Source: Siphonodentalium dalli
Lineage: Eukaryota; Mollusca; Scaphopoda; Gadilida; Siphonodentaliidae
DNA: 64,000 nt
Assembly: GCA_032622095.1 (NCBI GenBank)
Contig: CP136061.1
Span: forward strand, 682,001 to 746,000
Direction of reading: 5' to 3'
Under the pieces are notes generated by a model. That model did not search any database, was not told the DNA's origin, and saw only the letters and a program-made list of their open reading frames with translations. Position numbers and translations under genes: made by a program. Shown here piece by piece: positions 4,773 to 64,000 of the stretch; positions within the stretch are counted from its first letter, which is position 1; each line of letters opens with the position of its first letter.

Positions 4773-4910
4773 GCCTCGGATTCAATGATGCATGTTCCGG
4801 AGCTCAGTTCCCAGAAATGCCATGCAGTTCAGAGTTCACATGCTCTGCAGAAGGGAAATGTGTCTGTACTGGAACTAATCAGTATTATACAGGGTCAACT
4901 TGTCAACCCA
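4773..4910 (+). CDS. Exon: EB/EGF-like cysteine-rich module 1
   Basis: 138 bp, phase 1-1. Acceptor ttacag before 4773, donor gtaggt at 4911. The encoded 46 residues have six cysteines spaced C-x9-C-x5-C-x5-C-x-C-x11-C, with the CxC core (KCVC) followed by the aromatic motif QYY and a last Cys four residues before the splice. The spacing matches EB/EGF-like modules of invertebrate extracellular proteins. It is the first recognisable exon here; no upstream exon was found in 1-4772. Its final ~50 bp plus donor are tandemly amplified directly downstream, which leaves a second intact copy of the donor at 4981. Confidence 0.8.
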
Positions 4911-5390
4911 GTAGGTATCATGTGAAAATGTGTTTGTACTGGAACTAATCAGTATTATACAGGGTCAACTTGTCAACCCAGTAGGTATCATGTGAAAATG
5001 TGTTTGTACTGGAATTAATCAGTATTATACAGGGTCAACCTGTCAAGCCAGTATGCATGAAATGAAATGTGTCTGTACTGGAACTAATCAGTATTATACA
5101 GGGTCAACCTATGTGAAAATGTGTTTGTACTGGAATTAATCAGTATTAATCATGGTCAACTTGTCAAGCCAGTATGCATTAAATGAAATGTGTCTGTACT
5201 GGAATTTATCAGTATTAATCATGGTCAATTTGTCAAGCCAGTATGTATAAAATGAAATGTGTCTTACATGTACAGGAACTAATCAGTATTATACAGGATA
5301 AACCTGTCAAGCCAGTATGTATGAAATAAAATGTGTCTGTACTGGAACCAATCAGTATTATACAGGGTCAACTTATCAAGCCAGTACAGC
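4858..5390 (+). repeat. Minisatellite derived from the exon 3' end and its donor
   Basis: Eight units of about 70 bp (starts spaced 70, 70, 69, 52, 69, 69, 74). The first unit is the real end of exon 4773-4910 plus its donor. Each unit begins tgtctgtactggaactaat and runs through cagtattatacagggtcaa to a gtaggtatca-like donor region; units 1 and 2 keep the donor intact. The array lies wholly at the start of the intron. Confidence 0.9.
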
Positions 5391-9036: not shown

Positions 9037-9174
9037 GAATCACTTATCAACAATCATGTACTGATCCTTTGAATGGGGAGAATCCTTGCCTGAGTAACCT
9101 GCAGTGTTCCAGTAATACTTGTCAATGTGCCTATCAATATTTTTGGAATTCTGTCTCTGAGATATGTGCTCCTG
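9037..9174 (+). CDS. Exon: EB/EGF-like cysteine-rich module 2
   Basis: 138 bp, the same length as the preceding exon, phase 1-1. The acceptor follows a T-rich tract (tttgttttgttag) and the donor is ggtaagt. Six cysteines: C-x9-C-x5-C-x4-C-x-C-x12-C, with the TCQC core and the QYF aromatic motif at the same place as QYY in module 1. Same length, phase and Cys pattern argue for duplication of an exon-encoded module. Function unknown beyond a disulphide-stabilised extracellular domain. Confidence 0.82.
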
Positions 9175-11911: not shown

Positions 11912-12055
11912 CGGGTGGCTATGGAGCAAGTTGCACCTTAGATAGTCAGTGTAATTCAGACAAAGGACTGAGTTGTAGAACCTTGGGAGCTGATCAACTC
12001 TGCAGGTGTCCGTCTACACAATTCTGGTCCTCCAGTGGGGATTATTGTAATGGAT
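11912..12055 (+). CDS. Exon: EB/EGF-like cysteine-rich module 3
   Basis: 144 bp, phase 1-1. Acceptor ttctttttacag, donor gtgagt at 12056. Six cysteines spaced C-x5-C-x7-C-x8-C-x-C-x12-C; the core is LCRC, followed by QFW at the conserved aromatic position. Spacing before the core differs from modules 1 and 2 while the C-terminal half is conserved. It is the last cysteine-rich module before the FN3 series begins. An upstream in-frame run of hydrophobic codons (11650 onward) is intronic pyrimidine-rich sequence rather than protein. Confidence 0.8.
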
Positions 12056-13671: not shown

Positions 13672-13941
13672 TGAATAATTTACGTGTCACCACAGTAACA
13701 TGGAAAGATCAGACACCAGATTCTCTTGTTATATCATGGACTGCTCCATCACTCAGTACATTCATTACAAGATACGATGTCACCTACTCTCCTGGTAGTA
13801 GTCTCACAGACCAACAAAGTTCATCCACAACAATCAGTTCTTTGACAGCAGGAACAACATATAGCATTAAAGTCATATCTGTTGTTGTCGAACTTGGAGA
13901 AACAAAGTCTACAGAATCTGCTTCAAATGATTACACCACAG
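13672..13941 (+). CDS. Exon: FN3 domain 1 (single-exon module)
   Basis: 270 bp, phase 1-1, acceptor ttttaattacag, donor gtatgt after 13941. The 90 encoded residues form a whole FN3 fold: B-strand tryptophan in SLVISWTAP, C-strand ITRYDVTY, the LTAGTTYSIKV motif (conserved L...Y of the E-F region), and a terminal strand rich in Ser/Thr. FN3 domains are about 90 residues, so it is complete. Modules of this type mediate protein-protein contacts in receptors and matrix proteins. Confidence 0.88.
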
Positions 13942-14347: not shown

Positions 14348-14629
14348 AACCAGCCCAGCCGGGAGCCATAACTTCCCCCTCATTAGATGCTATCAATGCA
14401 CCAGATTTTGTACTGGTATGGACAGTCTCATCTGGAATCGTACAACATTACAATGTGAAAGTGATGGATGGAAACACAGAGGCATTCAGTGGGAATACTG
14501 ACAACAATGTTCCTCAGAAAACAGTGACTGGACTGAAGCATGGATATCGGTATCAGGTTCAGATAATGGCATACGTTGGATCTCTAAACAGTGTAACTAT
14601 GACTACGGACATCAGAACTGTTGTTACAC
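14348..14629 (+). CDS. Exon: FN3 domain 2 (single-exon module)
   Basis: 282 bp, phase 1-1; acceptor tctttgcag, donor gtaagt at 14630. It opens with a proline-rich start (PAQPGAI), has the B-strand Trp in FVLVWTVSS, C-strand IVQHYNVKV, and LKHGYRYQVQIMAY in the E-F region, all FN3 hallmarks. The preceding intron is only 406 bp, the shortest between these modules, and I see no repeat in it. The join to the previous exon gives a Glu codon with no stop. Confidence 0.87.
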
Positions 14630-17350: not shown

Positions 17351-17566
17351 GCCCTACTGCTCCTGGTCCTGTGACTCTAACAGTGGAATCATCAAATTCA
17401 GTTCGTGCTCGTTGGTCCATACCATCAGCTGTAAACGGGGATCTCAGAGGCTACGTTATTGAGGTGTATACGAAAATGTATACAGATGAGCAGCTTACTC
17501 TTTCCAATACACTGATCATATCTGTTGTTACTGAAACAACATTGAATACCATCGGTCTTACAGCAG
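17351..17566 (+). CDS. Exon: FN3 domain 3, first part
   Basis: 216 bp, phase 1-1; acceptor catccatag, donor gtaaat at 17567. Encodes the FN3 start PTAPGPV, the Trp of SVRARWSIP, and the C strand GYVIEVYTK, ending at IGLTAG. The remaining strands are on the exon at 19854. Unlike FN3-1 and FN3-2 this module is interrupted by an intron of 2.3 kb just before the F strand. Together the two exons give 103 codons, slightly longer than a minimal FN3. Confidence 0.83.
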
Positions 17567-23088: not shown

Positions 23089-23276
23089 GTCCTGGTGTCG
23101 TCGCCTCTCCATCAGCCAATCAGGTGGCAGCAACTTCATTCCAAATCAACTGGCAGAGACCAGCAGAACCTGGCGGTGACATTGTGGCATACAGCATTGA
23201 ATTAAGAAGCTCTGTAGCGGGTTACTATAAAAGCGAATGTTCCGTCCAGAAAACACTATGTAATAATTGCAATAAT
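23089..23276 (+). CDS. Exon: FN3 domain 4, first part
   Basis: 188 bp, starts in phase 1 and ends in phase 0 (donor aat/gtaagt at 23277). The acceptor ttttttcacacag has a strong pyrimidine tract. Encodes PGVVASPSAN, Trp in SFQINWQRP, C strand IVAYSIELR, then a loop with four cysteines (CSVQKTLCNNC), unusual for FN3 and possibly a disulphide-bonded loop. The acceptor lies only ~37 bp after the fold-back element at 22838-23052. Confidence 0.8.
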
Positions 23277-26550: not shown

Positions 26551-26694
26551 AGTGAAAAGGATACCTACTTTTTGGATTTATAAAATAATAAATAAAACTC
26601 CATCCATACAAATATTTAGTATTGCCCGATCTCTAAACTGAGCATTGGTGGGGGGCACCTTTAGCACGCTTGGAATTGCAGTTATTTGTTATTA

Positions 26695-26762
26695 ATCCAG
26701 CTCTTCTCTTTTTGTCATTGAGTGTCTCCATAACTTTCTGTTCTCAACAACAAAAATACTTA
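26695..26762 (+). pseudogene. Decayed copy of exon 26845 acceptor and 5' end
   Basis: cttctctttttgtcattgag and ctccataactttctgttctc match the acceptor and start of the real exon (cttctctttcaggcattgag, then ctctataactccctgctctc). Here the AG is lost (tttttgtc for tttcaggc), so this copy should not splice. Confidence 0.85.
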
Positions 26763-26844
26763 TTTTGAAATGCCTCCATGTGTCTTTAAGTTTATATTAT
26801 TTGAATCTTATTTTTATTATTAAAACATGGTTCTTCTCTTTCAG

Positions 26845-27043
26845 GCATTGAGTGTCTCTATAACTCCCTGCTCTCAACAACAGAATATTGTTACTCTGCC
26901 ATACTTCATTGATTTAGCAGTGAATCATTCACCAACTATTCATAACCTGAAGCCAGATACAGAGTACACCATTGATATATATGCATACACATCACAGTAC
27001 AGAGGTCAGAAGCACAGTATGACTCAACGGACAGGTCTTGCAG
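26845..27043 (+). CDS. Exon: FN3 domain 4, second part
   Basis: 199 bp, starts in phase 0 and ends in phase 1; acceptor cttctctttcag, donor gtacaa. Completes FN3-4: ALSVSITPCSQ, then LKPDTEYTIDIYAYTSQY, the canonical L-x-P-x-T-x-Y motif of the E-F region, and a final strand. One further Cys could pair with those of the preceding exon. A decayed copy of the acceptor side and the first ~50 bp of this exon lies ~150 bp upstream (26695-26762). Confidence 0.83.
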
Positions 27044-31869: not shown

Positions 31870-32031
31870 CTCCAGAGAAAGTTACAATCCTTCGCGTTGC
31901 TAGTAAAGCAGAAACATCTGTTACCATGGAATGGAAGATACCCGAAATAAGACCAGGTCCAACAAAGTACATCGTCAAGGTTTTGGATAAATATGAAATT
32001 AGCGGTGCTATGGCAGGATGCATGGGAAACG
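31870..32031 (+). CDS. Exon: FN3 domain 5, first part
   Basis: 162 bp, phase 1-1; acceptor gattatttcag, donor ggtaagt. Encodes PEKVTILRVAS, Trp in SVTMEWKIP, C strand TKYIVKVLD and a loop with one Cys (GCMGN). It is the first half of an FN3 completed at 38225, more than 6 kb downstream across two large satellite arrays. A piggyBac-type MITE starts 26 bp after the donor. Confidence 0.82.
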
Positions 32032-35544: not shown

Positions 35545-37605
35545 ATTCAGATAGTGAGTTGCCAGTTGCATTCATAAGATATGCAAGCAAGTTGGAGTTA
35601 TCATGCGATGTCACAAGGCTCAATTTCAACCAACCAACATGCATGCTGCATTCAAGCTTCACAGCGTGAATACAAGCGTACATGTGTTATAACATGCTAG
35701 CGTGAATACATGCTAGCGTGAATACATGCGTACATGTGTTATAACATACCAGCGTGAATACATGCGTACATGTGTTATAACATGCTAGCGTGAATACATG
35801 CTAGCGTGAATACATGCGTACATGTGTTATAACATACCAGCGTGAATACATGCGTACATGTGTTATAACATACCAGTGTGAATACTTGCCTACATGTGTT
35901 ATAACATGCCAGCGTGAATACATGCGTACATGTGTTATAACATACCAGTGTGAATACTTGCCTACATGTGTTATAACATGCCAGCGTGAATACATGCCTA
36001 CATGTGTTATAACATGCCAGCGTGAATACATGCCTACATGTGTTATAACATGCCAGCGTGAATACATGCGTACATGTGTTATAACATACCAGCGTGAATA
36101 CATGCCTACATGTGTTATAACATGCCAGCGTGAATACATGCCTACATGTGTTATAACATGCCAGCGTGAATACATGCCTACATGTGTTATAACATGCCAG
36201 CGTGAATACATGCCTACATGTGTTATAACATGCCAGCGTGAATACATGCCTACATGTGTTATAACATGCCAGCGTGAATACATGCCTACATGTGTTATAA
36301 CATGCTAGCGTGAATACATGCGTACATGTGTTATAACATACCAGCGTGACTACATGTGTACATGTGTTATAACATACCAGTGTGAATACTTGCCTACATG
36401 TGTTATAACATGCCAGCGTGAATACATGCCTACATGTGTTATAACATGCCAGCGTGAATACATGCCTACATGTGTTATAACATGCCAGCGTGAATACATG
36501 CGTACATGTGTTATAACATGCCAGCGTGAATACATGCCTACATGTGTATAACATGCCAGCGTGAATACATGCCTACATGTGTTATAACATGCCATCGTGA
36601 ATTGATGCCTACATGTGTTATAACATGCCAGCGTGAATACATGCCTACATGTGTTATAACATGCCAGCGTGAATACATGCCTACATGTGTTATAACATAC
36701 CAGCGTGAATACATGCCTACATGTGTTATAACATGCCAGCGTGAATACATGCGTACATGTGTTATAACATGCCAGCGTGAATACATGCCTACATGTGTAT
36801 AACATGCCAGCGTGAATACATGCCTACATGTGTTATAACATGCCAGGGTGAATTGATGCCTACATGTGTTATAACATGCCAGCGTGAATACATGCCTACA
36901 TGTGTTATAACATGCCAGCGTGAATACATGCCTACATGTGTTATAACATACCAGCGTGAATACATGCGTACATGTGTTATAACATACCAGCGTGAATACA
37001 TGCGTACATGTGTTATAACATACCAGCGTGAATACATGCCTACAAGTGTTATAACATGCCAGCGTGAATACATGCCTACATGTGTTATAACATGCCAGCG
37101 TGAATACATGCCTACATGTGTTATAACATACCAGCGTGAATACATGCCTACATGTGTTATAACATGCCAGCGTGAATACATGCCTACATGTGTTATAACA
37201 TACCAGCGTGAATACATGCCTACAATAGCTAGTGAGTTGCCAGTTGCATTCATAAGATATGCAAGCAAGTTGGAGTTATCATGCGATGTCACAAGGCTCA
37301 ATTTCAACCAACCAACATGCATGCTGCATTCAAGCTTCACAGCGTGAATACAAGCCTACATGTGTTATAACATGCCAGCGTGAATACATGCCTACATGTG
37401 TTATAACATACCAGCGTGAATACATGCCTACATGTGTTATAACATGCCAGCGTGAATACATGCCTACATGTGTTATAACATACCAGCGTGAATACATGCC
37501 TACATGTGTTATAACATGCCAGCGTGATACATGCCTACATGTGTTATAACATGCCAGCGTGAATGGATGCCTACATGTGTTATAACATGCCAGCGTTGTT
37601 AATTT
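35545..37605. repeat. 36-bp satellite array with duplicated flank
   Basis: About 50 units of catgcctacatgtgttataa plus catgccagcgtgaata. A 120-bp non-satellite lead-in (agtgagttgccagttgcatt to ttcaagcttcacagcgtgaa) occurs at 35553-35670 and again at 37229-37350. Since 36 is a multiple of 3, several frames on both strands stay open (12-residue periods); these are not genes. Confidence 0.95.
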
Positions 37606-38224: not shown

Positions 38225-38359
38225 ATTACATTTCGACAGGATGTCAGGTGACGGGATTAGATGCATTCTGGGAGTATGGAATCTCTGTTACCACGAGCGT
38301 TGGGAGTCCGCCGACGACTGTTGATACTACTGAACTAGTCTTTAGAACAGAAGAAGGAG
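38225..38359 (+). CDS. Exon: FN3 domain 5, second part
   Basis: 135 bp, phase 1-1; acceptor ttttttcag, donor ggtaat at 38360. Encodes YISTGCQVTGLDAFWEYGISV (split here as YISTGCQVTGL and DAFWEYGISV), the L...Y of the E-F region, and the final strand ELVFRTEEG. The junction with the previous exon makes an Asp codon. A Cys on each half-exon (CMGN / TGCQV) could form a disulphide, as suggested for FN3-4. Confidence 0.78.
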
Positions 38360-40245: not shown

Positions 40246-40382
40246 TTCCAGAAGGAGTTCAGCAATTGAAAAATAGTATGCCAGGGAGTTTTATTCAGCG
40301 TAAAATTACCTGGATGGAGCCCGGACTGAGGAACCGAAATGCGAACATCACAGAATATCAAATCGATATCACCGGTCACAAG
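40246..40382 (+). CDS. Exon: FN3 domain 6, first part
   Basis: 137 bp, starts in phase 1 and ends in phase 0 with donor aag/gtatgt. Encodes PEGVQQLKNS, the Trp of RKITWMEPG and the C strand ITEYQIDITGHK. Joined directly to 38359 it gives a Val codon and an ordinary FN3-FN3 linker. The second half of this FN3 was not found downstream. The last ~50 bp of the exon with its donor have been multiplied into the minisatellite at 40331-41440. Confidence 0.77.
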
Positions 40383-41440
40383 GTATGTGAGGTCAGATTA
40401 AATGTACCCGATAATGTAATAGCATTCATAGAAGTGAAGAAATGTGAACATCACAGAATATCAAATCGATTATAGTGGTTATAAGGTATGATATATCAGA
40501 TTAAATGTACCCATAATCTAATAATATTGATAGAAGAACCGAAATGTGAACATCACCGAATATCAAATCGATTACAGTGGTTACAAGGTATGTGATATCA
40601 GATTAAATGTACCCATAATGTATTAACATTGATAGAAGAACCGAAATGTGAACATCACCGAATATCAAATCGATTACAGTGGTTACAAGGTATGTGCTAT
40701 CAGATTAAATGTACCCATAATGTAATAACATTGATAGAAGAACCGAAATGTGAACATCACATAATATCAAATCAATTACACTGGTTAAAAGGTAGGTGAT
40801 ATCAGATTAAATGTACCCATAATGTAATAATATTGATAGAAGAACCGAAATGTGAACATCACATAATATCAAATCGATTACAGTGGTTACAAGGTATGTG
40901 AGATATCAGATTAAATGTACCCATAATGTATTAACATTGATAGAAGTAAAGAAATGCGAATTTCACTAAATAATAACTGAACTACACAGGTCATAAGGTA
41001 TTAAACATCGGATTAAATGGACCTGTGACGAAATAACATCGATGGAGGAACCGAAATGTGAACGTCAGAGAATATAAACTCCATTACACTGGTCATAAGG
41101 TATGGAGCATCAGATTAAATGTACCCGTAACCTGTTTACACTGGTCATAAGGTAGGTGATATCAGATTAAATGTACCCGTAACCTGTTTACACTGGTCAT
41201 AAGGTATGGAGCATCATATTAAATGCACCCGTAACCTGTTTACACTGGTCATAAGGTATGGAGCATCAGGTTAAATGTAACCGTAACCTGTTTACACTGG
41301 TCATAAGGTATGGAGCATCAGGTTAAATGTACCCCTAACATGTTTACACTGGTCATAAGGTATGGAGCATCAGGTTAATTGCACCCCTAACATGTTTACA
41401 CTGGTCATAAGGTATGGAGCATCAGATTAAATGTAAATAA
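40331..41440 (+). repeat. Minisatellite derived from the exon 3' end and its donor
   Basis: About eight units of 102-105 bp, the first including the real end of exon 40246-40382. Each holds gaaccgaaatgtgaacatca, atatcaaatcgattacagtg, a donor-like aaggtatgtgatatcagatt and tagaagaac. From about 41084 it changes to seven 52-bp units (cactggtcataaggtatgga, gcatcagattaaatgtaccc) that keep the donor motif. Confidence 0.92.
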
Positions 41441-45605: not shown

Positions 45606-45705
45606 NNNNNNNNNNNNNNNNNNNNNNNNNNNNNNNNNNNNNNNNNNNNNNNNNNNNNNNNNNNNNNNNNNNNNNNNNNNNNNNNNNNNNNNNNNNNNNN
45701 NNNNN
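45606..45705. other. Assembly gap (100 N)
   Basis: Exactly 100 N, the conventional length for a gap of unknown size. Sequence right of it is repeated at 60264 onward. Confidence 0.99.
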
Positions 45706-45897
45706 ATAAGAGAATGCATTGGCCTAAAAAAAAATCTTTTTTAACACTTTTTACCATTTTTTCTTACATTCTTTAACAATTTTATAATTTTTAATGTGTT
45801 AAGCCAATGCATTCTCTTATATATGCGAGGCGACCTATGGTCGACTCGCATATATAAGAGAATGCATTGGCACATGGCCGTTCTGTTGGGTAAAGGG
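45706..45897. mobile_element. piggyBac-type MITE, 3' part cut by the gap
   Basis: Core gcattctcttatatatgcga and its inverse, ending gttgggtaaaggg/tcaa. Its left part (60075-60263 in the other copy) is in the gap. Confidence 0.8.
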
Positions 45898-46128
45898 TCA
45901 AAGACCGATTTCGGGGCTGAAAAATTTCCAGCAAGTCGTGTATGCTCTGATCGATGGAATAATCGTTTAAACGCCAAACGACCTAGAAACACCTATTTGG
46001 AAACACATGTCATACGTCAATCAACCGAGATGATGGCCAAAATGGTGCATGCAGTTAAAAACTAAATATTTCATGTATATTATATAGTTTATTTAATTCA
46101 GGCTCAAATGGCCCATATGATAGAAATA

Positions 46129-46338
46129 TCAATTATATGTAATACAGAATGTCTTTCCAATGTTTGAAAAGATAAGATTCTTTCTTATCAACATAGGAAC
46201 AGAGCTCACAGCATTCCTGGCGTACATCCCACTTGCGCTACATCTCCATTCATATGCCATAAACTTCCTATAGGCATTGTTATAACATACAATTATGGGT
46301 GAAATTTTCCCACAAAGTGCAGCTGCAAAGTACAACAA
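46129..46338 (-). pseudogene. LINE reverse transcriptase C-terminal fragment
   Basis: Minus-strand frame gives VCYNNAYRKFMAYEWRCSAS and ARNAVSSVPMLIRK, matching the conserved region after the polymerase domain of jockey/CR1-like LINEs (YN-A-R, R-C-S-AS-MF, N-V-S--LLRK). Truncated at both ends. Copy at 60687-60896. Confidence 0.75.
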
Positions 46339-46470
46339 TATAATGATGAAATATACGATGAAAAAGATGGCGTTTTACATCAAATGAGCACTTGTTAAAA
46401 AATTCATGTGGATATTGGAACGGGAACAAATTATTCTATATTGCCTCATAATATCATCATCAAACGAACG

Positions 46471-46700
46471 CGATTTGATTGATTGATTTTATTTGGCACA
46501 GGGTACCAGGGATAACACAAGAAAGTCTAGCACGCGCCGTTAGGGAGAGTCGTTTCTTGAAGTATCCATCCAGGCACACTATCTGACTCAGACAGGCACA
46601 CTCATCCAGTTTTGCGATTTTTTTTCGATCCACCGGGATTCGAACTGACGGCGCGCACCTGGTCGTTCGTAGAGCAATTGTCTGTCACTGGTGCAGAAGG
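46471..46700 (-). mobile_element. tRNA-derived SINE
   Basis: On the minus strand the head has a B-box like AGTTCGAATCCCGGTGG after GCGCGCCGTC, preceded ~45 bp upstream by an A-box-like segment, and the tail ends CCTGTGCCAAATAAAATCAA with a short TCAATCAA repeat. Order and spacing fit a tRNA-headed SINE. Copy at 61029-61258. Confidence 0.7.
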
Positions 46701-47120
46701 GTTATTTCACTTTTCCGATTGCGCTAACGGAGCTCTCTATAATGATGTTGACGGCTAAATATGGGGAATTTACTTGTACGTATGTGTCAGTAATTATTAA
46801 ATTGAGTACCGGTATATTACTGACCCCCCCCCCCCCGCATTAATAGTTACTTGTTATGTAAATTGTTTATCCTCATGCATTGCAACGTCACGTCAAATGC
46901 GTTGCATGTATACCTTGGTTAATAAACTGCTTTACTCGTATTTAAATGAGGGGAAAAATAGTTGGACTCAAGTTTATCTAAACTACAGTCCATAGGTAAA
47001 ACATAGGTTCGAACGGAAGCAATTGATTTTTAAATTGATTTCAGTTTTGTCATCATTCTGCTTTTCTAATAAATTGGTTATTGTAAACGTCATCCAATTA
47101 GAAAATTATAAGTGGGTTAT
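46701..47120. other. Nothing recognised apart from a 13-C run
   Basis: Poly-C at 46824-46836. No gene. Confidence 0.5.
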
Positions 47121-47520
47121 AAGTGGCACTTTTTGATACATTGTGCGCTATAACTGGGCGAGGCACATTTTGTACATTGTGCGTTATAAGTGAGCGTGGC
47201 ACTTTTTGGTACAGTGTGCGTAATAAGTGGGCGTTTCCAAAGTCGGCAATGACAAAAAACAGTTTTCAGCGCCTTGCTTCGCTCGGACTGCGTAATGAAG
47301 ATGCGCAAACATTGACTCTCAAAGTAACCCGACCAACGGAGAGATAGCGTGCGGATGGGTTCAGACTTTTGGAAAATTCCTCCGTAAATGGCTGTATTTG
47401 AGTGCGGCATCACTAAGCTATTTTTGGTATCGTATGTTGGCGGACGACAAAAATGTTTTTTCAGCGCCTCGCTTCGCTCGGACTATGCAGTGTAGATGCG
47501 CAAACTTTGATCGCACTTTC
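47121..47520. repeat. Inverted leader of the GTACC array and duplicated spacer
   Basis: 47125-47230 carries gtggcactttttggtacagt units in the orientation opposite to the array at 47521. A ~60-bp spacer (cagcgccttgcttcgctcgg) at 47262 recurs at 47462. Confidence 0.75.
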
Positions 47521-49072
47521 AGCGCACACTGTACCAAAAAGTTTACCAAAAAGTGCCACGCCCACTTTCAGCGCACGCTGTACCAAAAATTGTACCAAAA
47601 AGTGTACAAAAAAGTGACACCCACTTTTAGCGCACACTACCAAAAAGTGTACCAAAAAGTGCCACGCCCACTTATACCGTACGCTGTACAAAAAATAGTA
47701 CCAAAAAGTGCCACGCCCACTTTCAGCGCACACTGTACCAAAAGTGTACTTTCAGCGCACACTGTACCAAAAGTGTACCAAAAAGCGTACCAAAAAGTGC
47801 CACACCCACTTTTAGCGCATACTGTACCAAAAAGTGTACAAAAAAGCGTACCAAAAACTGCCACGCCCACTTTCAGCGCACGCTGTACCAAAAAGTGTAA
47901 CAAAAAGTGACACCCACTTTTAGCGCACACTGTACCAAAAAGTGTACCAAAAAGTACCACGCCCACTTTTAGCGTACGCTGTACCAAAAAGTGCCACGCC
48001 CACTTTCAGAGCGAACTGTTCCAAAAAGTGTACCAAAAAGTGCCACGCCCACTTTTAGCGCACACTGTACCAAAAAGTGTACCAAAAAGTACCACGCCCA
48101 CTTTTAGCCTACGCTGTACCAAAAAGTGCCACGCCCACTTTCAGAGCGAACTGTACCAAAAAGTGTACCAAAAAGTGCCACGCCCACTTTCCGCGCACAC
48201 TGTACCAAAAAGTGTACCAAAAAGTGTACCAAAAAGTACCACGCCCACTTTTAGCGTACGCTGTACCAAAAAGTGCCACGCCCACTTTCAGAGCGAACTG
48301 TACCAAAAAGTGTACAAAAAAGTGCCACGCCCACTTTTAGCGCACACTGTACCAAAAAGTGTAGCAAAAAGTACCACGCCCACTTTTAGCGTACGCTGTA
48401 CCAAAAAGTGCCACGCCCACTTTCAGAGCGAACTGTACCAAAAAGTGTACCAAAAAGTACCATGCCCACTTTTAGCGTACGCTGTACCAAAAAGTGCCAC
48501 GCCCACTTTCAGAGCGAACTGTACCAAAAAGTGTACCAAAAAGTGTAGCAAAAAGTACCACGCCCACTTTTAGCGTACGCTGTACCAAAAAGTGCCACGC
48601 CCACTTTCAGAGCGAACTGTACCAAAAAGTGTACCAAAAAGTACCATGCCCACTTTTAGCGTACGCTGTACCAAAAAGTGCCACGCCCACTTTCAGAGCG
48701 AACTGTACCAAAAAGTGTACCAAAAAGTGCCACGCCCACTTTTAGCGCACACTGTACCAAAAATTACCACGCCCACTTTTAACGTACGCTGTACCAAAAA
48801 GTACCACGCCCACTTTCAGAGCGAACTGTACCAAAAAGTGTACCAAAAAGTACCATGCCCACTTTTAGCGTACGCTGTACCAAAAAGTGCCACGCTCACT
48901 TTCAGCGCACACTGTACCAAAAAGTGTACCAAAAAGTGCCACGCCCACTTTCAGCGCACACTGTACCAAAAAGTGTACAAAAAAGCGTACCAAAAAGTGC
49001 CACGCCCACTTTCAGCGCACACTGTACCAAAAAGTGTACAAAAAAGCGTACCAAAAAGTGCCACGCCCACCA
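47521..49072. repeat. Complex tandem array with ccacgcccac motif
   Basis: Dozens of units of gtaccaaaaagtgccacgcc, then cactttcagcgcacact or cacttttagcgtacgct, some with extra gtgtaccaaaaa blocks, giving variable 50-70-bp periods. Long frames on both strands are artefacts of repetition. Confidence 0.95.
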
Positions 49073-50228
49073 TACTGATTCAATGCTACTAACTGTTATG
49101 GACCATACTGATTCAATGCTACTAACTGTTATGGACCATACTGATTCAATGCTACTACCTGTTATGGACCATACTGATTCAATGCTACTAACTGTTATGT
49201 ACCATACTGATTCAATGCTACTAACTGTTATGTACCATACTGATTCAATGCTACTAACTGTTATGGACCATACTGATTCAATGCTACTACCTGTTATGGA
49301 CCATACTGATTCAATGCTACTAACTGTTATGTACCATACTGATTCAATGCTACTAACTGTTATGTACCATACTGATTCAATGCTACTAACTGTTATGGAC
49401 CATACTGATTCAATGCTACTAACTGTTATGTACCATACTGATTCAATGCTACTAACTGTTATGTACCATACTGATTCAATGCATTTACTAACTGTTATGT
49501 ACAATACTGATTCATTGCATTTACTAACTGTTATGTACCATACTGATTCAATGCTACTAACTGTTATGGACCATACTGATTCAATGCTACTAACTGTTAT
49601 GTACCATACTGATTCAATGCTACTAACTGTTATGTACCATACTGATTCAATGCTACTAACTGTTATGGACCATACTGATTCAATGCTACTAACTGTTATG
49701 TACCATACTGATTCAATGCTACTAACTGTTATGTACCATACTGATTCAATGCATTTACTAACTGTTATGTACCATACTGATTCAATGCTACTAACTGTTA
49801 TGTACCATACTGATTCAATGCTACTACCTGTTATGGACCATACTGATTCAATGCGACTACCTGTTATGTACCATACTGATTCAATGCTACTAACTGTTAT
49901 GTACCATACTGATTCAATGCTACTAACTGTTATGGACCATACTGATTCAATGCTACTAACTGTTATGTACCATACTGATTCAATGCTACTAACTGTTATG
50001 TACCATACTGATTCAATGCTACTAACTGTTATGGACCATACTGATTCAATGCTACTAACTGTTATGGACCATACTGATTCAATGCTACTACCTGTTATGG
50101 ACCATACTGATTCAATACTACTAACTGTTATGTACCATACTGATTCAATGCTACTAACTGTTATGTACCATACTGATTCAATGCATTTACTAACTGTTAT
50201 GTACAATACTGATTCAATGCATTTGATG
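49073..50228. repeat. 33-bp minisatellite, about 35 units
   Basis: Unit ccatactgattcaatgctac plus taactgttatgga (or gta). 33 bp keeps frames open: the + frame reads an 11-residue repeat (HTDSMLLTVMY/D) and runs directly into the C-terminal exon at 50237. Some units carry a 3-bp insertion (catttac), still in frame. Confidence 0.95.
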
Positions 50229-51479: not shown

Positions 51480-53005
51480 TTTGCAGAATGTGTCTGACAT
51501 TTGAAGAATGAGGTCCCCAAAGGGTGATTTTAATGACGCTATCCCGCATAGTTGGCTAGCATCACCAAATTCACCATCTGGCTACCTCATTCTATATCCC
51601 ATAATTTGCAGAAGATAAATTGCATAATCGAGGTGACTAATGGGTGAACATCACCAACCTCAACTTGGGAACTTCAATCATAATAGATACTCATGTCTCC
51701 CTCTAGGCTGGTTCCCCGCCTGGTATAATGATCTACTGATGTAATCTCCAGTCTATGTAATCATAATAGATACTCATGTCTCCCTCTAGGCTGGTTCCCC
51801 ACCTGGTGTAATGATCTACTGATGTAATCTCCAGTCTATGTAATCATAATAGATACTCATGTCTCCCTCTAGACTGGTTCCCCACCTGGTGTAATGATCT
51901 ACTGATGTAATCTCCAGTCTATGTAATAGATATACTCATGTCAGTCTCATGTGTAATCACCATTATAATCACTCACCAGTTAGAGCAGAATCTCATTTAC
52001 TATCTTTGCTTTGGGGCTGCGACGATACAAAATTTTATATGATATGCATCGTGATATAAATGGGTCACAATGAGGTGATGTGTATTGTGGTGCATTGATG
52101 AAATGTTGCAGCCCTTTGTTCATGCTTTGTAGCGGCATATTAACACATTACCACCATTCTACAGTAATGCTCTAAATAATCGACTCCTTAACCACAGCAG
52201 AATTATGGGTAATTTTTCAGGATTTAGTCGGAAATATGGCTTGTTGCCATTCATCGGAAAGCTCTCAGTGAGAGCTTTCCAATGAATGGCAACAAGCCAT
52301 ATTTCCGACTAAATCCTGAAAAGTTACCTAAAATTCTGCTGTGGTTAAGGAGTTGATTATTTAGAGCATTACTGTATATCACATCCCCATTTACTTATCA
52401 AACTACTATCGCAGAAACACTGCTATAGATTACGTGGTGATATTGTACATTCCGTAATATTGACATTGATCATATTCCAAGCCATGAATGTCAATCGACC
52501 ATAATAACACATGTCTCTTTGTCTCAAACTTTTAAATGAATTGCCATGACTTTGTTTCATATACATCAAGGAAACTATAGGGAACTATAGAAGCCTGGAA
52601 ATACTGTGTCTGACATTTTCAGAATGAGGTCCCCAGACGGTGAGATTAGTGATGCTACCCCACAAAGGGAACTAGCATCGCCAAATTCACCCTCTGGAGA
52701 CCTCTTTCTGCTTAGACCTCATCTTCTGTGAAGTATCTACAGTCTCAAATTAACATTGTTTTAGTTACTTTTTCCCTTCTGTTCAGTTTCTATATCCCAT
52801 AATTTGCAGAAGATAAAATGTTTAATCGATGTGACTAATGGTGAACATCACAAATGTCAGCTGGGGAACATCAGGTCTCCCATAGCAGTTGAGGCCTGAG
52901 CAGAATGAGGTTCCCTATGGATGAATTTGGTGACATTCACCATGTGTGTGTGGTAGCATTACTATATTCACAATCCTGGGACCTTATTCTGCAAATGACA
53001 GACAG
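51480..53005. repeat. Dispersed inverted-arm repeat (agaatgaggtcccc) and 92-bp triplication
   Basis: 51497-51595, 52609-52720 and 52890-53000 carry gaatgaggtcccca...gtga and inverse ttcaccctctgg...cctcattctg arms. 51676-51930 has three ~92-bp units (gatactcatgtctccctcta). Similar arms occur at 56992-57315. Confidence 0.75.
52162..52374. mobile_element. 213-bp palindromic MITE, TA target (copy 2)
   Basis: cagtaatgctctaaataatc to tttagagcattactg, flanked by TA; centre ctcagtgagag. Same length as the other full copies. Confidence 0.9.
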
Positions 53006-54432: not shown

Positions 54433-56172
54433 TTAATTTAGACCAAGTAGGGTAATAGTGCTTAGTTAAGAACTGCTTTTAGAAGTGAATTTTACTTGGC
54501 TAAATAGATAAAAAAAAAAACTATGTTCTCAGGTGCCTTCCTATCACATCAAGAGGCCTCATAAAACATGTTATTTACAAATTTATGCAGATTTCAAAAT
54601 CTGATGTTCCATTTTTCCACATTTTGATAATTAGATTGTTTATAATGACTATAAAGCACTGGGTGAGGGTTTTATAAAACTCTGTATATCTGCTAATTTC
54701 TAAAATTCTTGAGAAATAGTAAAAGTCCGGCCTCCCTTATTCAGTTTTCCATGTTTAATTATCTGTGAACAGATATTTATTTCTATGACCTAATTTTGTT
54801 TTCTAGCATAATATAACTTGTTAAAGTGAAAGTGCAATACAGCTGAAGGCCAGTGTTTTGTTAAACAAGACGTGAATTGTGTCACTGTACGGAAATTTGT
54901 TAATTCTTCTGAATACTTAATGGATTCTCCCATTCAGTGATAAAAGAGTACACTGGAATGGTCCATTCTTCATTTGTAGGGGTGTTTAGATACTATAATC
55001 AGACGTCAATCGGAGAAACATTCTTTTTGGATTCATTTGTAATGGTGTTCAGATAATAAGGCTCGCTGTTGAACTTATAAACTGAACATCATACAAATGA
55101 ATTATTAGGAATCGAGTAATTATGCATCATCACATATTTAGTTATCAGCCCGTTGAATGATAAATGTAACTAATTTAACAAGTTTGATAGATGATTGTGT
55201 GAATTGTGTTCTATAGTTATTCCACATCTCAGCACCAAGGCCATTATTAAAGTGATGTGAAACATTCTGGTAGGTTGATAAAATAAAAATGGAGAATAAT
55301 CTTACTCAAAGTAGTTATTATTACAAATATTATATCCAAATTGACAACACATGCCGTCATTCTTATATATTAATTGAATGCAATGAATCTCGGTGGCCAA
55401 ATCATTTTTGTTAGCTTATCGCCGATAGTTGCGTCCCAAATAGAGAAGTAAATATTTACAATTGAGCGTGGTTCAGACGATGTTTCTATGCAGTTGTACG
55501 GTCGATTTGCTTGAGATTTTCGCCGATGTGAGTAGAATGCTACATTCCCACAGTTGACATAGCGCCTGAATACTAAATTATCAGTTCCACGCACCCGAGC
55601 AAGTCCATAATATATCTTTAATGTGTATTTTGTATTATGTATTATGTTTCACATGTGAGAAATTGAAATGTTTATTTCATGCTGATGATTTAGTATGCTA
55701 AATACTTATTGGACATTGAAAGATGTATTCAGGGTTCCAGGGCAAGTTTTACGATTAAATTCTAGTGTTTATAAGTTAGCATGTGTGGAATTGGAATGCC
55801 ACCTCAAAAACTAACCATTAATTTCATATAGTTTTGTTGATCTGGATGGACAATAAAAGTTAGCACCTTGATTTTTCAACAACTATATGACAATTTTACA
55901 CTCGAGTCATGAACTCTTTTCATTATAATTACCATGTTGTTTGCATCGTTCATAGAACACATGAGTGTATTTTGCACTAATCCATGGCTCAAATTCATTA
56001 ATTTGTTGCATATATTCGGTTGAGTATAAAAGGAAATGGTACCATAAATGGCCAGTGTACAGTACCCTTTTAACAAGCTATTTGTGTGTGGATCTTCAAA
56101 TTCAGGTATCACCTCCCAGAAAAAACAAACATCCAGAGCAACACATAAACCCATATCGCTAAATTGATCATA
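54433..56172. other. Intergenic stretch, little recognised
   Basis: 55235-55310 (attaaagtgatgtgaaacat, ggagaataatctta) recurs at 57435-57505. No gene supported. Confidence 0.5.
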
Positions 56173-56385
56173 CAGTAATGCCCTAAATAATCAGACCCCT
56201 TAACCACAGCAGAATTATGGGTAACTTTTCAGGATTTGGTCGGAAATATGAATTGTTGCATTCATCAGAAAGCTCTCAGTGAGAGCTTTCCGATGAATGG
56301 CAACAAGACATATTTCCAACTAAATCCTGAAAAATTACCCATAATTCTGCTGTGGTTAAGGAGTCGATTATTTAGTTCATTACTG
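56173..56385. mobile_element. 213-bp palindromic MITE, TA target (copy 3)
   Basis: cagtaatgccctaaataatc to tttagttcattactg with TA flanks and centre ctcagtgagag. Confidence 0.9.
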
Positions 56386-56574
56386 TATGTTGTAACTCTC
56401 GAATCGTGAGTATATCTTTAACAGATGTGTATTAAGTTATGTTGCAGGATACATCTTTAACAGGTGTGTAATAAGTTATGTTGCATGATACTTTTCTGTA
56501 AATCAAAGCTAACATTTTGTGATCCTTCGAATATTGTTATAAAACGGTCACACATCAATCATGTTATTTTAGAT

Positions 56575-57506: not shown

Positions 57507-57900
57507 TTTTTATACGCCCTTTTGAAAAAAAAGGCCGTATTATAGTATTGGTCTGTCCGTCCGGGCGGGCGTCCGGTGCGTCCGTTAACCTGTTGTCCGG
57601 ATGATAACTTTAGTTAGAGTGAACCGATTTCAATAAAATTTGGTATGTGGGTTTATTAGCCGAAAAGTAAGTTCAAGTTCGAATTTGGGTTCCGCCCGCC
57701 AATTTTCACCGGAGTTATGCCCCTTATTTGACGTTTTTTGACTTAGAAAATCCTTGAAATTTGTTGTCCGGATGATAACTTTAGTATAGTTTATCGGAAT
57801 GAATCCAAATTTGGTATATTACTTTCTCCCACCAAAACACAGGTCAAGTTCGAACTTGGGTTCTGTCCGACCATTTTTGGCAGAGTTATGCCCCTTTTTT
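57507..57900. repeat. Dispersed repeat family B with its 5' start
   Basis: Begins tatacgcccttttgaaaaa, ggccgtattatagtattggt, then a GC-rich gtccgtccgggcgggcgtcc, followed by the gatgataactttagttagag units seen at 2700-3470, nearly identical to 2705-2955. Confidence 0.8.
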
Positions 57901-60074: not shown

Positions 60075-60455
60075 CCCTTTACCCAACAAACCGGCCAAAT
60101 AAAGCTTCAACAGCCTAAAATATCTTCGGTCTGTCTCAATAGAACCATACAAATATGGATATCATTGGAACCGGCTCATTGACACACTGTGATAGTTACA
60201 GTTATGCCATGTGCCAATGCATTCTCTTATATATGCGAGTCGACCATAGGTCGCCTCGCATATATAAGAGAATGCATTGGCCTAAAAAAAAATCTTTTTT
60301 AACACTTTTTACCATTTTTTCTTACATTCTTTAACAATTTTATAATTTTTAATGTGTTAAGCCAATGCATTCTCTTATATATGCGAGGCGACCTATGGTC
60401 GACTCGCATATATAAGAGAATGCATTGGCACATGGCCGTTCTGTTGGGTAAAGGG
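60075..60455. mobile_element. piggyBac-type MITE, full copy at the duplication edge
   Basis: TTAA/ccctttacccaacaaacc to gttgggtaaaggg, the right TTAA mutated to TCAA. Its part from 60264 equals the sequence right of the gap. Confidence 0.85.
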
Positions 60456-63400
60456 TCAAAGACCGATTTCGGGGCTGAAAAATTTCCAGCAAGTCGTGTA
60501 TGCTCTGATCGATGGAATAATCGTTTAAACGCCAAACGACCTAGAAACACCTATTTGGAAACACATGTCATACGTCAATCAACCGAGATGATGGCCAAAA
60601 TGGTGCATGCAGTTAAAAACTAAATATTTCATGTATATTATATAGTTTATTTAATTCAGGCTCAAATGGCCCATATGATAGAAATATCAATTATATGTAA
60701 TACAGAATGTCTTTCCAATGTTTGAAAAGATAAGATTCTTTCTTATCAACATAGGAACAGAGCTCACAGCATTCCTGGCGTACATCCCACTTGCGCTACA
60801 TCTCCATTCATATGCCATAAACTTCCTATAGGCATTGTTATAACATACAATTATGGGTGAAATTTTCCCACAAAGTGCAGCTGCAAAGTACAACAATATA
60901 ATGATGAAATATACGATGAAAAAGATGGCGTTTTACATCAAATGAGCACTTGTTAAAAAATTCATGTGGATATTGGAACGGGAACAAATTATTCTATATT
61001 GCCTCATAATATCATCATCAAACGAACGCGATTTGATTGATTGATTTTATTTGGCACAGGGTACCAGGGATAACACAAGAAAGTCTAGCACGCGCCGTTA
61101 GGGAGAGTCGTTTCTTGAAGTATCCATCCAGGCACACTATCTGACTCAGACAGGCACACTCATCCAGTTTTGCGATTTTTTTTCGATCCACCGGGATTCG
61201 AACTGACGGCGCGCACCTGGTCGTTCGTAGAGCAATTGTCTGTCACTGGTGCAGAAGGGTTATTTCACTTTTCCGATTGCGCTAACGGAGCTCTCTATAA
61301 TGATGTTGACGGCTAAATATGGGGAATTTACTTGTACGTATGTGTCAGTAATTATTAAATTGAGTACCGGTATATTACTGACCCCCCCCCCCCCGCATTA
61401 ATAGTTACTTGTTATGTAAATTGTTTATCCTCATGCATTGCAACGTCACGTCAAATGCGTTGCATGTATACCTTGGTTAATAAACTGCTTTACTCGTATT
61501 TAAATGAGGGGAAAAATAGTTGGACTCAAGTTTATCTAAACTACAGTCCATAGGTAAAACATAGGTTCGAACGGAAGCAATTGATTTTTAAATTGATTTC
61601 AGTTTTGTCATCATTCTGCTTTTCTAATAAATTGGTTATTGTAAACGTCATCCAATTAGAAAATTATAAGTGGGTTATAAGTGGCACTTTTTGATACATT
61701 GTGCGCTATAACTGGGCGAGGCACATTTTGTACATTGTGCGTTATAAGTGAGCGTGGCACTTTTTGGTACAGTGTGCGTAATAAGTGGGCGTTTCCAAAG
61801 TCGGCAATGACAAAAAACAGTTTTCAGCGCCTTGCTTCGCTCGGACTGCGTAATGAAGATGCGCAAACATTGACTCTCAAAGTAACCCGACCAACGGAGA
61901 GATAGCGTGCGGATGGGTTCAGACTTTTGGAAAATTCCTCCGTAAATGGCTGTATTTGAGTGCGGCATCACTAAGCTATTTTTGGTATCGTATGTTGGCG
62001 GACGACAAAAATGTTTTTTCAGCGCCTCGCTTCGCTCGGACTATGCAGTGTAGATGCGCAAACTTTGATCGCACTTTCAGCGCACACTGTACCAAAAAGT
62101 TTACCAAAAAGTGCCACGCCCACTTTCAGCGCACGCTGTACCAAAAATTGTACCAAAAAGTGTACAAAAAAGTGACACCCACTTTTAGCGCACACTACCA
62201 AAAAGTGTACCAAAAAGTGCCACGCCCACTTATACCGTACGCTGTACAAAAAATAGTACCAAAAAGTGCCACGCCCACTTTCAGCGCACACTGTACCAAA
62301 AGTGTACTTTCAGCGCACACTGTACCAAAAGTGTACCAAAAAGCGTACCAAAAAGTGCCACACCCACTTTTAGCGCATACTGTACCAAAAAGTGTACAAA
62401 AAAGCGTACCAAAAACTGCCACGCCCACTTTCAGCGCACGCTGTACCAAAAAGTGTAACAAAAAGTGACACCCACTTTTAGCGCACACTGTACCAAAAAG
62501 TGTACCAAAAAGTACCACGCCCACTTTTAGCGTACGCTGTACCAAAAAGTGCCACGCCCACTTTCAGAGCGAACTGTTCCAAAAAGTGTACCAAAAAGTG
62601 CCACGCCCACTTTTAGCGCACACTGTACCAAAAAGTGTACCAAAAAGTACCACGCCCACTTTTAGCCTACGCTGTACCAAAAAGTGCCACGCCCACTTTC
62701 AGAGCGAACTGTACCAAAAAGTGTACCAAAAAGTGCCACGCCCACTTTCCGCGCACACTGTACCAAAAAGTGTACCAAAAAGTGTACCAAAAAGTACCAC
62801 GCCCACTTTTAGCGTACGCTGTACCAAAAAGTGCCACGCCCACTTTCAGAGCGAACTGTACCAAAAAGTGTACAAAAAAGTGCCACGCCCACTTTTAGCG
62901 CACACTGTACCAAAAAGTGTAGCAAAAAGTACCACGCCCACTTTTAGCGTACGCTGTACCAAAAAGTGCCACGCCCACTTTCAGAGCGAACTGTACCAAA
63001 AAGTGTACCAAAAAGTACCATGCCCACTTTTAGCGTACGCTGTACCAAAAAGTGCCACGCCCACTTTCAGAGCGAACTGTACCAAAAAGTGTACCAAAAA
63101 GTGTAGCAAAAAGTACCACGCCCACTTTTAGCGTACGCTGTACCAAAAAGTGCCACGCCCACTTTCAGAGCGAACTGTACCAAAAAGTGTACCAAAAAGT
63201 ACCATGCCCACTTTTAGCGTACGCTGTACCAAAAAGTGCCACGCCCACTTTCAGAGCGAACTGTACCAAAAAGTGTACCAAAAAGTGCCACGCCCACTTT
63301 TAGCGCACACTGTACCAAAAATTACCACGCCCACTTTTAACGTACGCTGTACCAAAAAGTACCACGCCCACTTTCAGAGCGAACTGTACCAAAAAGTGTA

Positions 63401-64000
63401 CCAAAAAGTACCATGCCCACTTTTAGCGTACGCTGTACCAAAAAGTGCCACGCTCACTTTCAGCGCACACTGTACCAAAAAGTGTACCAAAAAGTGCCAC
63501 GCCCACTTTCAGCGCACACTGTACCAAAAAGTGTACAAAAAAGCGTACCAAAAAGTGCCACGCCCACTTTCAGCGCACACTGTACCAAAAAGTGTACAAA
63601 AAAGCGTACCAAAAAGTGCCACGCCCACCATACTGATTCAATGCTACTAACTGTTATGGACCATACTGATTCAATGCTACTAACTGTTATGGACCATACT
63701 GATTCAATGCTACTACCTGTTATGGACCATACTGATTCAATGCTACTAACTGTTATGTACCATACTGATTCAATGCTACTAACTGTTATGTACCATACTG
63801 ATTCAATGCTACTAACTGTTATGGACCATACTGATTCAATGCTACTACCTGTTATGGACCATACTGATTCAATGCTACTAACTGTTATGTACCATACTGA
63901 TTCAATGCTACTAACTGTTATGTACCATACTGATTCAATGCTACTAACTGTTATGGACCATACTGATTCAATGCTACTAACTGTTATGTACCATACTGAT
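60264..64000. repeat. Segment identical to 45706-49442 (copy 2)
   Basis: Same order and spacing: LINE fragment 60687-60896 (minus), SINE 61029-61258 (minus), inverted leader 61679-62078, GTACC array 62079-63630, 33-bp minisatellite from 63631 to the window end. No difference was noticed in spot comparisons. Confidence 0.95.

Follow-up and report, generated by a model that had tools for sequence, protein, structure and literature searches.

A tandem repeat lying across an exon/intron boundary in the amphioxus Adh3 gene was reportedly described in a Nucl Acids Res paper of 2002. Such repeats were named "mirages" in Adh3, and the globin genes BflGb6 and BflGb9 are described as carrying them too (PMC3087553); a lancelet PGBD5 mirage has been added, with troponin C cited as well (PMC3902484). 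In these accounts, either boundary of the exon may be affected, AG or GT is found in many of the units, repeat lengths vary, the edges of the cluster are left out of homogenisation, and splicing is regular by RT-PCR (PMC3087553, PMC3902484). The architecture of the array at 40331-41435 in the window studied here (the whole stretch of 64,000 nucleotides that was analysed, to which all positions refer) is the one already known from the amphioxus mirages, and the array is very probably a further example with many units. A literature search beyond lancelets, over titles and the starts of abstracts, returned no recognised case of the same architecture.

The window has a G+C content of 36.5% and the appearance of eukaryotic DNA. 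Its plus strand carries one spread-out gene, eleven exons of which could be placed in the window (Table 1); each has an AG acceptor, a GT donor, and an open frame, and the phases chain together from exon to exon. The list is surely incomplete; the FN3 domain that starts at 17351, for one, lacks its second half there. Matches to Pfam fn3 exceed the curated cut-off in three exons (13672-13941, 14348-14629, and 17351-17566) and fall below the cut-off of 25 bits in three others (23089-23276, 23.7 bits; 26845-27043, 24.7 bits; 31870-32031, 16.1 bits). Pfam gave no match for the exons at 38225-38359 and 40246-40382, and the cysteine-rich exons have sub-threshold matches or none. A tRNA scan and an Rfam scan (gathering threshold) of the window found no hits.

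Table 1. Exons of the host gene, units of the array, and other boundary duplications placed in the window
Feature	Position	Strand	Evidence or remark
Cysteine-rich exons (three)	4773-4910, 9037-9174, 11912-12055	+	AG/GT, phase chain
Cysteine-rich exon; its end forms unit 1 of the other array	4773-4910	+	Pfam EGF_2 E = 0.25, below cut-off
First case: eight units of ~70 bp, CCA/GTA in 7/8	4856-5386	+	
FN3-type exons, first four of eight	13672-13941, 14348-14629, 17351-17566, 23089-23276	+	
Third case: single diverged upstream copy of intron end, acceptor, and exon start	26685-26755	+	59/73 identical
FN3 second-half exon with duplicated acceptor region	26845-27043	+	Pfam fn3 E = 2.7e-05, 24.7 bits (cut-off 25)
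FN3-type exons, last four of eight	26845-27043, 31870-32031, 38225-38359, 40246-40382	+	
Probable exon, FN3 first half	40246-40382	+	Acceptor tgcttttag, donor AAG/GTATGT, phase 1 in / 0 out
Unit 1: last 52 nt of the exon, then the authentic donor and the intron start	40331-40433	+	TRF start, donor spacing
Units 2 to 8, ~102 bp each, intronic, AAG/GTA in each	40434-41130	+	TRF, donor spacing
First in-frame stop on read-through of the authentic donor	40473-40475	+	Before donor 2 (40485)
52-bp units; donor copies ending 41099 to 41411	41084-41435	+	TRF, donor spacing

Several other features of the window are repetitive. Two stretches of 3737 bp (45706-49442 and 60264-64000) are 100% identical, the first following directly on a gap of 100 N (45606-45705); this repeat seems to be an artefact of assembly duplication, not a biological feature. 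An element of ~220 bp is present in three copies that are 87-92% identical (1296-1521, 52160-52384, and 56165-56388) and that align with one another in either orientation, as a short palindromic mobile element would. Two far-separated stretches of 266 bp (2692-2957 and 57634-57899) share 98.9% identity and are perhaps a recent mobile-element copy. A minisatellite with a 36-bp period (35708-37596) has long frames open on both strands, which stay open because the period is a multiple of three; it is probably not coding.

TRF resolves the array at 40331-41435 into two overlapping parts, one of period 102 (40331-41130, 7.8 copies, score 1039) and one of period 52 (41084-41435, 6.8 copies, score 590). 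The array begins 52 nt ahead of the exon end, so that its first unit overlaps the exon at 40246-40382. Fourteen units can be counted, every one with AAG/GTA (14/14), and the donors are spaced 103, 102, 102, 102, 102, 104, and 102 bp apart and then 52 bp six times. A 52-bp unit comprises the last 16-18 nt of the exon copy, the donor, and ~30 nt of intron, and the first of these units overlaps the end of unit 8. Only unit 1 adjoins a full open exon with an acceptor; the other 13 units sit in the intron. The initial annotation had proposed this succession of exon end, donor, and intron start, first in units of 102 bp and later in units of 52 bp, and both TRF and the donor spacing bear it out. A search with 40331-41440 against the rest of the window gave no match outside the array, and the idea that the array is a piece of a dispersed element was rejected in the absence of a second copy within the window.

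The array is very probably a mirage, that is, a minisatellite derived from a tandem duplication that straddled the exon 3' end, the donor, and the start of the intron. An initial duplication of ~102 bp would have been spread by slippage or unequal exchange, and a shortened 52-bp unit would later have undergone a second expansion. The first donor presumably remains in use because it is the only one that adjoins the full exon, and the duplication would be tolerated because one exon-donor junction is intact and all of the extra sequence is intronic. Copying of this kind is most likely harmless.

This interpretation depends on the exon at 40246-40382, which is open in one frame and whose phase matches that of the preceding exon (38225-38359). 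At its two ends it has the same phases as the first-half exon 23089-23276. It encodes an FN3-like motif, ITWMEPG..NITEYQI; the pattern, composed after the exon had been seen, occurs in 3 of the 1984 open reading frames of the window, all three belonging to this gene. In the PDB, with E values of 10 or less admitted, the exon matches only one entry, an FN3 domain from receptor phosphatase delta (PTP delta), and not significantly (E = 0.29). An HMM built on the five other first halves of the gene did not include this exon among its matches, which is evidence against its being a typical FN3. The second half of this domain was sought with an HMM of four second-half sequences, which recovered the four exons it was trained on at E <= 2.6e-17; the best other row among the matches listed had E = 0.93, and three open frames downstream of the exon contained no FN3 according to Pfam. 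The label "FN3-6 first half" given in the initial annotation is supported as regards an open, phase-matched exon and finds no match in Pfam or the first-half HMM. That 40246-40382 is a real exon is probable, not proven, and its FN3 identity rests on the FN3-like motif and the intron phase.

The fourteen donor sites carry the hexamers GTATGG (6), GTATGT (4), GTAGGT (2), GTATGA (1), and GTATTA (1). An earlier count of more than ten sites like gtatgt or gtatgg thus holds for 14 donor-like sites, of which 10 have strictly one of these two hexamers. Out of nine consensus positions, six of the donors match 8, seven match 7, and one matches 6; among other GTs taken for comparison, 15% reach 6 matches and 2.6% reach 7. 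Predicted U1 pairing ranges from -5.7 to -11.1 kcal/mol over the 14 donors. The authentic donor is at -7.6 kcal/mol, and the two GTAGGT decoys, in units 5 and 9 (40791 and 41151), are at -11.1 kcal/mol; silence of the decoys is accordingly not guaranteed. The units holding these two decoys have the same 14-nt intron start despite lying four units apart.

If the decoys were in use, a donor array of variable copy number might tune what proportion of this gene's transcripts is aberrant, truncated, or degraded. We regard such a role as highly improbable. The retention of AAG/GTA at all sites, the 6 to 8 consensus matches of each donor, and the two decoys that exceed the authentic donor in predicted U1 pairing speak for it. 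However, the stop that follows the authentic donor precedes donor 2, so that every distal donor (13/13) would lead into a premature stop; donor positions +4 to +6 are not conserved; and the published mirages left splicing undisturbed in RT-PCR (PMC3087553). Decoy donors are probably seldom used, and any use would be expected to yield truncated or degraded messages.

The copies could also be read as additional exons. Stops in the host frame are found in 4/7 of the downstream full exon copies (units 2, 5, 6, and 7), the stop of unit 2 sitting in the first codon only. At the unit junctions, the places where extra exons would have to begin, there is no pyrimidine tract: pyrimidines make up a fraction of 0.32-0.42, compared with 0.58-0.84 at the gene's real acceptors. 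On the basis of this difference and of the stops in several copies, spare or mutually exclusive exons were rejected. Recursive splicing, in which the AG/GT of each unit would serve as acceptor and donor and the intron would be removed stepwise, is very unlikely. It would draw on the AAG/GTA of each unit and on the pyrimidine fraction ahead of AAG in units 8-14 (0.58-0.63), which overlaps the weak end of the range of real acceptors; in units 1-7, however, this fraction is only 0.47-0.53, and the individual steps, at 52-104 nt, would be very short. We know of no recursive splice site in array form.

Comparison of the units agrees with a mirage in which the copies resemble neutral debris. Mean pairwise identity, taken over the 21 pairs that units 1-7 form, is 84.0% in the exon-derived part (46 nt) and 82.7% in the intron-derived stretch that follows (56 aligned positions), the latter taking in six exon-derived nt that open the next unit and being somewhat depressed by a 2-nt insertion in unit 6. 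Within units 2-6 the corresponding values are 93.3% and 90.4%.

When changes were mapped to a neighbour-joining tree that related the units with the donor columns left out, donor positions -3 to +3 showed zero changes in the 14 units, with a nominal P of ~0.0015 for a span that was picked after the columns had been seen. Over the full 9-nt donor there are 6 changes, compared with an average of ~8.6, or roughly one for each column; among other stretches of nine columns the count goes down to 3. These donor-column changes could hint at constraint; the evidence is weak and mixed. Selection for decoy donors was considered and not accepted, as the -3 to +3 core is unchanged yet all six changes fall at +4 to +6.

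Units 2-6 are homogenised, with 0-6 differences in 47 core columns. Over the same columns unit 1 has 9-15 differences from every other unit; unit 7 has 13-15 from units 2-6, and unit 14 has 7-14 from all others, partly since the array ends inside its core. Unit 9, which differs at 5-6 positions from the adjoining units 8 and 10, is a patchwork of an exon end of the 52-bp type and an intron start identical to that of unit 5 over 14 nt; this is as expected of exchange between units, and a retained older state could produce it too. Taken together, the homogenised units 2-6, the outlying units 1 and 7, and the patchwork of unit 9 point to exchange between units in addition to plain slippage.

Two other boundary duplications were found in the same gene. 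The initial annotation called the array discussed above a second case, and its first case is taken to be the array at 4856-5386, whose unit starts are spaced 70, 70, 69, 52, 69, 69, and 74 bp apart. Compared with the rest of the window, this array had only one outside match, of 14 bp, which is attributable to chance. The third case is on the acceptor side: the duplicate at 26685-26755 pairs with 26813-26885, the acceptor region of the exon at 26845, and has no AG at the acceptor position. In all three cases (3/3) the intact copy is the one that adjoins the exon body, which is what neutral duplication followed by selection would predict.

The recurrence of such duplications raises a further explanation, that a mutational process aimed at exon/intron junctions (for example, splice-site repair or slippage during transcription) makes arrays repeatedly. 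Two donor-side arrays and one acceptor-side duplicate within one gene, and the mirages in several amphioxus genes, favour such targeting. Array placement gives it some support: 40 arrays, merged by hand from the TRF output, together occupy 12,704 of the 60,263 bp taken into account, and random placement of them yields a mean of 0.34 cases with a donor in the first unit, with P = 0.047 for two or more. Restricting the placement to the ten arrays with a period of at least 50, a cut that was chosen afterwards, gives P = 0.012; when either boundary is counted, P is 0.15. In the first 41.5 kb alone, with 24 arrays, the values are P = 0.046 (donor) and 0.15 (either boundary), and 8 arrays of period 50 or more give P = 0.018.

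A test by local similarity, in which exon boundaries and random non-exon points were handled alike, tells against targeting. The donor configuration was seen at 2/11 donors and 71/1135 random positions (P = 0.15), and the acceptor configuration at 1/11 and 54/1135 (P = 0.42). Any local copy was found at 3/22 exon boundaries compared with 343/1135 random non-exon positions, a difference towards fewer copies at the boundaries (Fisher P = 0.10). Furthermore, 38/40 merged arrays touch no placed exon, and 2/40 overlap one, compared with 3.6 expected; selection may remove arrays that break exons, so that survivorship would shape what is seen. The 95% interval for 2/11 donors extends from 2% to 52% around a background of 6.3%, and a several-fold bias is hence still compatible with the data.

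The placement and local-similarity tests disagree mildly; targeting is not established, and the sample is too small to exclude a bias. Of the earlier proposal that two independent cases reflect a recurrent junction-linked process "rather than chance," the two donor-side cases stand, joined by the acceptor-side duplicate, while the process itself is not established. We consider a mutational process aimed at junctions quite improbable as the origin of the array. The broader proposition, that minisatellites in the host genome arise preferentially at exon ends, on both donor and acceptor sides and far above chance, and feed intron evolution, seems unlikely, even if the array-placement test (P = 0.047) leans towards it.

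A second known system for comparison is the gain of introns. Rogers is said to have proposed in 1989 a model in which introns arise by tandem genomic duplication of AGGT. The array resembles this model in that tandem duplication of an AG/GT segment makes extra potential splice sites. It differs in that the model duplicates an exonic segment and turns the sequence between the copies into a new intron, whereas here the copies lie downstream of the exon end and are putatively intronic; the AG/GT is duplicated, and the pyrimidine fraction ahead of it is low in units 1-7. A review presents AGGT duplication in tandem as a real source of new introns (PMC3443670), and a potato RdRp gene is reportedly a case of intron gain by tandem duplication (PMC4974935). 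With ordinary intronic minisatellites, many others of which TRF detects in the window, the array shares its tandem arrangement and homogenised centre; unlike them, it holds an exon end and a plausible donor in its first unit.

The closest likeness is to the amphioxus mirages. Given the probable exon, the repeat spans an exon/intron boundary; one intact boundary copy, unit 1 alone, stands beside the exon body; splice signals are present in many units, in this array and in that at 4856-5386; and the centre is homogenised and the edges are not. The array differs from the amphioxus mirages in its 14 units and two periods (102 and 52 bp). It is a clear example, in that the pre-mRNA would carry one authentic donor with 13 near-copies behind it, two of them with better predicted U1 pairing, and it offers a case for asking whether adjacency to a complete exon outweighs donor strength. 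With three boundary duplications in one gene, the host genome is a candidate for a genome-wide count of mirages, where the question at stake is whether mirages are products of a targeted process or the residue of high minisatellite turnover and selection.
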